Under the pieces are notes generated by a model. That model ran no database searches and had not been told where the DNA came from. It saw nothing but the letters and a program-made list of their open reading frames with translations. Positions 39,259 to 47,757 of a stretch of DNA of 49,235 bases are shown in pieces (the first letter of the stretch is position 1; every line of letters begins with the position of its first letter). Origin of the DNA: Lachnospiraceae bacterium (GTDB lineage: Bacteria; Bacillota; Clostridia; Lachnospirales; Lachnospiraceae); contig JAFTXD010000001.1 of the NCBI GenBank assembly GCA_017461775.1, forward strand, positions 1 through 49,235, written 5' to 3'. The position numbers and the translations under genes were made by a program.

Positions 39259-39337
39259 TCTTACACCATAACTTCTTTTTATAAATATATTATGAAGCAG
39301 GGTGTAAAAGGTCAGCTTTTTCTTGCAATAAATAGTG

Positions 39338-39643
39338 TATGGGAATCCGGGCTTAAGCACCGCAGGCAGATGGAAGATGTTGGGAATAGGGCAAGGGTAG
39401 TTTTATCAGACTCCGAGGGTCAAGTACTTCTAAGATTTTTGCCAAGGGTATTGAAAAGCCACGCGTCGGATGCAATGCGCGTCCGTGCGCAGTGCATCCT
39501 AATTCGGGCATCCGTGCCCGAATTCCGCTGTTTGTGGTTCAAAAATCTAAGAAGTACTAAACCCTCTTCATATTCAAAAACTACCCTTACCCTATTCCCA
39601 ACATCTTCCACCTGCCTGCGGTGCTTAAGCCCGGATTCCCATA
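39338..39643 (+). repeat. structured inverted-repeat element, copy 1
   Basis: Long arms starting GGGAATCCGGGCTTAAGCAC (39341) pair almost perfectly with their complement ending at 39640. Inside lie the bulge motif CAGACTCCGA (39407-39416) opposite TCTTCATAT (39565-39573), a second stem with TCTAAGATT, and an 84-nt core (39454-39537). The core runs from AAAAGCCACGCGTCGG to CCGCTGTTTGTGG and holds two hairpins. The same core with compensatory changes occurs at 47515-47598. No transposase is encoded. It fills most of the gap between the LRR gene terminator and the subtilase start; apart from that terminator I see nothing else there. Confidence 0.9.
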
Positions 39644-39652
39644 GATACAAAA

Positions 39653-39687
39653 AAGCCGTAAGGGAAGCTGACCTCCACTTACGGCTT
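39653..39687 (-). terminator. terminator of the sortase/LRR operon
   Basis: AAGCCGTAAG and CTTACGGCTT form a 10-bp stem with an inner GAAG/CTTC-like extension; on the minus strand six T follow. It starts 5 nt past the stop of the 423-residue LRR protein. Confidence 0.85.
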
Positions 39688-47002: not shown

Positions 47003-47078
47003 AAGAAAAATAGTGAACAAAGCCAAGCCATACCGCATAACATGAAGTATAAACAAAAAAATTTATAGGAGGTTGCTT

Positions 47079-47342
47079 ATGAGCGACTTAACAGCTACCA
47101 ATTGTGGTTCTTGTTCTTCTACTATGGGCGGGGGATGTGGAAGCATCATCTGGATTTTACTTTTATTATGTGTATGTGGCGGCAACAATAACGGCGGTTG
47201 CGGTCTCGGCGGTATCTTAGGTGGCGGTTGTGACAACGACTGTGGTTGTGGCAATCACGGCTCTAACGGCTGCGATTGGTTGATCTGGATTATTCTTCTT
47301 TCCTGCATCTGCGGCGGAAATAACAACGGCTGCGGCTGCTAA
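47079..47342 (+). CDS. Cys/Gly-rich small protein with two internal repeats (HCB-13-like)
   Basis: This 87-residue protein starts MSDLTATNCGSCSS and consists of two similar halves. SIIWILLLLCVCGGNNNGG is matched by DWLIWIILLSCICGGNNNG; between them is a Gly/Cys/Asp-rich linker. Each half has one very hydrophobic stretch followed by CxCGGNNNG. RBS AGGAGG (47067-47072) is 6 nt before the ATG. Proteins of this type are annotated in Clostridia as chorion-class high-cysteine HCB protein 13 by remote similarity only. The function is unknown; spore-coat, membrane-associated metal-binding or secreted-peptide roles are all possible. It is followed by a strong terminator. Confidence 0.8.
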   Translation: MSDLTATNCGSCSSTMGGGCGSIIWILLLLCVCGGNNNGGCGLGGILGGGCDNDCGCGNHGSNGCDWLIWIILLSCICGGNNNGCGC

Positions 47343-47366: not shown

Positions 47367-47394
47367 TCGCCGGCTAAATAAGCCGGCGATTTTT
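47367..47394 (+). terminator. terminator of the Cys-rich gene
   Basis: TCGCCGGCT and AGCCGGCGA form a 9-bp GC-rich stem with a 5-nt loop, followed by TTTTT. It lies 25 nt past the stop codon on the plus strand. Confidence 0.92.
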
Positions 47395-47420
47395 CCATAA
47401 GAATTTGAATGCATTCCGAA

Positions 47421-47682
47421 GGATGGTGGGGCGGCGGGGGCTGGGGATATGGTGTGGTAAAATGGTTCAGACTCCGATATTTAAGAGTTTCTAAGATTGC
47501 TGATTCAGTTTAAGAAAAGCCACGCGTCGGTGGCAATGTGCATCCGTGCACAGTGCCACCTAATTTGGGCTTCCATGCCCAAATTCCGCTGTTTATGGAG
47601 CAGCAATCTAAGAAACTCTAAAATATCTTCATATGAACCATTTTACCACACCATCTCCCCAGCCCCCGCCGTCCCATCATCC
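47421..47682 (+). repeat. structured inverted-repeat element, copy 2
   Basis: The outer arms begin GGATGGTGGGGCGGCGGGGG and pair with their complement ending at 47682. They share no sequence with the arms of copy 1. CAGACTCCGA (47468-47477) again lies opposite TCTTCATAT (47626-47634), and TCTAAGATT recurs in the second stem. The 84-nt core 47515-47598 is 72/84 identical to copy 1. It occupies the 415-nt gap between the Cys-rich gene terminator and the gene at 47758; nothing else is visible there. Confidence 0.9.
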
Positions 47683-47757
47683 GCCAAAAATGCCACAAAC
47701 ATTTTACGAATAATGAAAAGCTTCATGCATAGACTTAAAAATGAGAGGAGGAAGCAT

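Follow-up and report, generated by a model that had tools for sequence, protein, structure and literature searches.

TwoAYGGAY RNA was found in 2010, was predicted in 2014 to bind CsrA and was still called "relatively unexplored" in 2025. The excerpts of the literature consulted attach no established function to it, and those from PMC2864571, PMC11701678, PMC4333381, PMC11661157 and PMC7657543 make no mention of mobility. Among other systems that insert at, or copy between, inverted repeats, excerpts of the respective papers describe group IIC introns, which insert beside a DNA stem-loop (PMC10190682), and template switching, which homogenizes the arms of inverted repeats in yeast sequences (PMC8604942; PMC3820800).

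How do two inverted-repeat elements in a Lachnospiraceae genome compare with these systems? Both lie in the 49,235-nt stretch of DNA that we analyzed (the window), and both are new instances of TwoAYGGAY RNA (Rfam RF01731). The cmscan matches are full length (model positions 1–168) and on the minus strand, at 39408–39572 for copy 1 (108.5 bits) and 47469–47633 for copy 2 (104.7 bits), against a gathering score of 43, and RF01731 was the sole Rfam family reported at both elements. A first-pass annotation had recognized no named RNA family here and had described TCC-containing loops; the former statement falls with the Rfam search, and the latter is correct for the plus strand, but the RNA sense lies on the minus strand, and its loops are thus GGA loops. 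In copy 1, the fold and the RF01731 structure line place core hairpin 1 at 39501–39524 (minus strand, loop ACGGAU) and core hairpin 2 at 39468–39499 (minus strand, loop ACGGAC); copy 2 carries ACGGAU and AUGGAA, the final base of AUGGAA being off the AYGGAY consensus. The same annotation had compared two 84-nt cores, 39454–39537 and 47515–47598, and recomputation gave the same 72 identical positions, yet the core as defined by Rfam is 165 nt long. Eight of the 12 differences form four changed pairs that are still paired on folding: 39470:39497 (A:T to T:A), 39471:39496 (T:A to G:C), 39478:39489 (C:G to T:A) and 39505:39520 (C:G to T:A). The remaining four are at two unpaired positions (39481 and 39514) and in two pairs altered on one side only, one weak and outer (39534), the other loop-closing (39510).

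Each core is enclosed by a pair of outer arms on the same strand. In copy 1, folding and arm pairing delimit a 5' arm of 71 nt (39573–39643) and a 3' arm of 70 nt (39338–39407); in copy 2, folding and a strict boundary measure give 49 nt (47634–47682) and 48 nt (47421–47468). The minus strand of 39330–39650 folds at −213 kcal/mol, compared with a mean of −91.2 (SD 5.4) for 100 shuffles (z −22.4), and that of 47410–47690 at −168.7 kcal/mol, compared with −82.3 (SD 5.1) for 200 shuffles (z −17.0), so the long inverted repeats noted at first pass are real. Copy 1 sits between an LRR gene and a subtilase gene (PF00082), pointing at the latter. The intrinsic terminator of the upstream LRR gene (39653–39687, minus strand; hairpin of −21.5 kcal/mol plus T-run) adjoins the outer arm with its T-run end, 1 nt away, or 11 nt by the final terminator count, where a 6-nt overlap of flank and arm is allowed. 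Copy 2 is directed toward a small convergent ORF (47073–47342), whose intrinsic terminator (47367–47394, plus strand; placed by sequence and terminator count) faces the element from its 3' side at 32 nt. A promoter scan of the two window regions gave one match in each, not above shuffles.

How widespread are such elements? The first-pass annotation had two copies, both of which are genuine, but the 2.9-Mb genome of the window (G000; a fragmented assembly, 82% complete) holds 37 RF01731 matches over the cutoff. Across the genus, 32 of 138 genomes are positive, with 1 to at least 18 matches each; in a survey of the class, in which up to 7 matches per genome were scored, 36 of 391 genomes match with an E-value no higher than 0.001, including 27 over the cutoff, and none of 14 control genomes has a match. 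A genome assembled as one contig (G006) contains 30 copies (six second fetches of its loci were left out of all tables), several with identical cores and many in near-identical subfamilies, the main one being part of a longer repeat that is bounded by terminal inverted repeats and occurs at unrelated loci. The same genome has a Clostridiales-1 RNA (RF01699, 111.8 bits; L089:2603–2764) about 900 nt from a TwoAYGGAY copy.

Most cores stand on a further outer stem that extends past the 168-position Rfam model and is specific to the copy. The stem has a median of 57 Watson–Crick pairs (range 30–129) in 31 of the 37 G000 copies, from the weakest (L017) to the longest (L035); six copies whose flanks were too short (L008, L010, L018, L019, L021 and L025) were left out of this count and of the terminator counts below. 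Over 42 nt in 27 G000 copies (L017, L027, L035 and L037 omitted), the two arms of a copy are 94.8% identical as reverse complements. Identity between arms of different copies is 62.1%, where shuffled letters give 58.5%, and that between cores is 76.5%. G makes up 46% of the 5' arm and C 14%. In other genera, 16 of 18 loci (all but L215 and L217) score higher than the 99th percentile for mismatched flank pairs, 11.0, and 7 of 18 also exceed the maximum for such pairs, 20.0; the extended stem is thus widespread, although usually shorter than in G000. In the main G006 subfamilies, terminal inverted repeats are common to copies, whereas in G000 they are copy-specific. At a site common to two species, the G000 copy (L037) and that of another genome of the genus, G053 (L113), are both palindromes with different arm sequences. 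Capture of an arm from elsewhere was considered and rejected for the one arm searched: within its own genome, 39338–39410 of copy 1 matched its partner arm (97% over 67 nt) and otherwise only itself and one 31-nt stretch at an E-value of 0.099. The copy 1 element had no match in phages or plasmids.

Do these elements move? In a tree of 102 distinct cores (without L098 and L101), copies cluster by genome, with 21 label changes against a minimum of 19 and a shuffled mean of 60.5; the clustering could alternatively reflect homogenization of old copies. G053 is the best match in the genus to both queried window stretches (73 and 74% identity) and has a single RF01731 match, the one at the site of L037. 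In the 644 kb of G053 sequence compared, 6 of the 37 G000 sites have both flanks, and four of these sites were read: three, corresponding to the two window copies and L029, are without the element, and the fourth, that of L015, holds a different hairpin. By eye, the copy 1 site (L023) has a terminator-like hairpin and T-run in G053 too, and the G000 element stands directly after its own terminator. L008 and L019 are identical save one base over the core and 49 nt of the 3' arm, the part available for comparison as both contigs end 5 nt upstream of the core, and their flanks beyond are unrelated. Dispersed copies and element-free sites are what a MITE-like nonautonomous transposon would leave, and the likeness extends to the inverted repeats and to the G006 unit with its common terminal repeats; unlike in MITEs, the inverted repeats of G000 are not common to copies, and no target-site duplication was recognized by eye in the G000 flanks inspected. 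No mobility gene was seen between the paired copies, and no conserved neighbor gene was seen across loci. L063 and L126 have two neighbor genes in common, with the element at a different place, and copies at L160 border a duplicated ordinary gene. The duplicated segment (L160:2947–5631, in G103) has TwoAYGGAY copies at its borders, and its gene is presumably polysaccharide-deacetylase-like.

We also examined where the elements sit and which way they point. A terminator T-run faces the element boundary within 25 nt on 14 of 58 element sides (14 of 31 copies), compared with 39 of 834 control sides, which are nonindependent intergenic positions of the 49-kb window only. The terminator at copy 2 lies beyond this limit and is uncounted; a first count with no 25-nt limit gave 15 of 31 copies. 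Terminators stand on the 5' side of some copies and the 3' side of others. Group IIC introns take a single fixed orientation relative to the terminator; the elements resemble them in lying beside a stem-loop but differ in being found either way round, and only RF01731 was reported here. Outside G006, L098 and L101, a crude open-frame caller placed a codirectional frame downstream of 44 of 85 copies, about the random expectation, so as a class the elements have no leader position. Among the 66 of these 85 that lie between codirectional frames, 36 have the same orientation as the frames and 30 the opposite one.

A second multicopy hairpin family came to light in genomes of the genus. Its DNA core is GGTACRTAAGC-hairpin-GCTAAGTRCC (as RNA, GGUACRUAAGC-hairpin-GCUAAGURCC), with CGCTTTCGCT upstream and a long stem that varies between copies (L236–L255 in G017; L226–L235), an architecture similar to that of TwoAYGGAY. 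The pattern occurs in 17 of the 138 genus genomes, with 41 matches in G017 and none in G000, and the backward pattern used as a control gave none. By eye, a sequence resembling AGGTAATTGCGAAACTC stands at both ends of many of the 20 copies in G017. No Rfam 15 family matched at the gathering threshold, and an identity with the only two matches below it, both miRNAs far below gathering (E-values of 0.005 and 0.009), was rejected. All eight matches in G006 are followed on the same strand by a TwoAYGGAY core, about 110–115 nt downstream; in G105, four of six lie 114–271 nt upstream of one. The different hairpin at the G053 site of L015 (L168:6735–6960) is long and has a core like that of this second family.

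Are the stems maintained by selection on RNA pairing? Covariation alone is no proof of this, because arm-to-arm DNA copying can also mirror changes in long bacterial hairpins. Pairing at the RNA level tolerates G-U but not A-C, and a comparison of the two helps tell DNA copying from RNA-pairing selection. The two core hairpins (102 sequences) contain 36 G-U and 3 A-C, or 24 and 3 if G006 is excluded; the corresponding numbers are 9 and 1 for the outer core stem and 4 and 8 for the inner one. In the outer arms of 31 G000 copies, we counted 1,777 Watson–Crick pairs, 34 G-U and 28 A-C, and across all tabulated genomes except G006, 126 and 131; the G006 arms have 82 G-U vs. 27 A-C, from near-identical copies. 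The hairpins differ from the outer arms in this ratio (Fisher P = 5e-5, with cells that are not independent). Since G-U far exceeds A-C in them, the core hairpins look RNA-selected on the strand with GGA, unlike the arms outside G006. Other counts disagree. By alignment columns, some of them misaligned, the core has 161 G-U and 196 A-C (L037 was left out of the core alignment for this count and included in the loop and core-hairpin counts). By folding, which favors G-U, and without L098 and L101, the core has 201 vs. 20, the arms outside G006 129 vs. 41 and the G000 arms 28 vs. 11. Misalignment and folding bias account for the difference between the column- and fold-based counts.

Changes in the arms were also compared between copies. 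Across 13 independent pairs of well-paired copies, drawn from the 53 of 104 copies with arms at least 80% identical (a selection that favors mirrored counts) and having, in 11 pairs, only 71–79% of the arm in common, 180 substitutions are mirrored in both arms and 49 are confined to one. Indel events in the same set are more often single-arm (12) than mirrored (8). L098, L099, L101 and within-genome pairs of G006 were left out. L001 and L002, the closest pair, have cores that are 95% identical; five of their substitutions and one indel are mirrored, and one of each is not. Mirrored substitutions are compatible with both copying and compensatory selection; the mirrored indels favor copying, and so does the near equality of G-U and A-C in the G000 outer arms. 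The selection on base pairing that the first-pass annotation had read from its four compensatory changes fits the two core hairpins but is not demonstrated for the long outer stem, where G-U about equals A-C and changes, some of them indels, are often mirrored.

On balance, these elements are probably copies of a small nonautonomous mobile palindrome that carries an RNA core and in which DNA copying keeps the arms alike. At its center would stand the TwoAYGGAY core, of which at least the two hairpins with GGA loops would act as RNA, flanked by two reverse-complementary arms, mostly 50–70 nt long in G000. We infer an enzyme acting in trans, which would recognize the folded core or the arms, in the form of either RNA or single-stranded DNA, and would insert the unit, often beside terminator hairpins, while a replication template switch within the hairpin would copy changes from one arm into the other. 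Such switching would leave arms complementary yet fast-changing, and the slower change of the core would reflect selection, either to be recognized or to perform a task in the cell, CsrA binding being one possibility. The likeness to the yeast cases lies in arms made alike by copying; the difference is that those concern yeast sequences and no mobile RNA element. A structured noncoding RNA and a palindromic mobile element had been offered at first pass as alternatives, and RNA-level pairing in the core hairpins together with the mobile-element behavior lends support to both.

Could the elements serve instead as a sponge? Two GGA hexaloops per RNA might titrate CsrA in trans, with copy number raising the dose and the arms merely stabilizing the molecule, a reading that we consider unlikely. 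A CsrA role for TwoAYGGAY has been proposed from motif matches (PMC4333381, in the portion consulted), and several observations agree with it: GGA is present in both loops of 73 of 102 distinct cores, in at least one loop of all 102 and in both loops of all 36 G000 cores aligned (L037 left out), G-U exceeds A-C in the core hairpins, and G000 itself has two CsrA matches. However, 29 of the 102 cores have one loop without GGA, mostly ACGAUG, among them 15 of the 19 distinct cores of G006 and 8 of the 12 of G010. CsrA occurs in 29 of 32 RF01731-positive and 75 of 106 negative genus genomes (Fisher P = 0.033), a weak association by a statistic that ignores kinship and completeness. The three positive genomes without CsrA are 59, 73 and 84% complete; the last of these, G065, has 14 RF01731 matches and no CsrA found. 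A CsrA sponge also leaves the copy-specific arms, the new sites and the random orientation unexplained.

A hairpin acting at the DNA level only, as a folded single strand or cruciform that serves as a transposase-like substrate or a chromosomal structure signal with no RNA role, is less probable still. It would suit the near equality of G-U and A-C in the outer arms and the lack of a G-U excess in the inner core stem, and orientation relative to genes is random and promoter matches in the two window regions are no more frequent than in shuffles. The ratios of 36:3 in the core hairpins and 9:1 in the outer core stem, on the strand with the GGA loops, stand against it. REP and BIME repeats are held to protect or end read-through transcripts, and we regard a comparable role here, with a very long 3'-end stem selected as RNA, as very improbable: the sites are near terminators and the folds are very stable, but the elements lie in either orientation, a terminator is often present already, and RNA selection predicts an excess of G-U well above A-C in the arms that is absent in G000. 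Finally, a cis-regulatory leader, as the Rfam type of RF01731 (Cis-reg) implies and the orientation of copy 1 toward the subtilase gene would allow, is scarcely credible, as the near-random orientation largely refutes it for the class, copy 2 faces a convergent ORF, cis-reg is marked "n" in the table of the discovery paper, and L037/L113 and L041/L119 are the only same-site-like pairs among the 60 listed of 69 cross-genome locus pairs with a common neighbor protein match (many to generic families); a subset of copies could nevertheless have been co-opted as cis-regulators.

If the mobile palindrome is the true account, the Rfam type Cis-reg would be wrong, and the question would become which enzyme moves TwoAYGGAY. 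More tentatively, and as a possibility rather than an expectation, Clostridia may have two or more families of mobile palindromic RNA elements, TwoAYGGAY and the similar second family among them, in which a conserved folded RNA core would move in hairpin form, frequently to positions next to terminators, and fold-back copying would rewrite both arms in step and so give each copy a long stem of its own.
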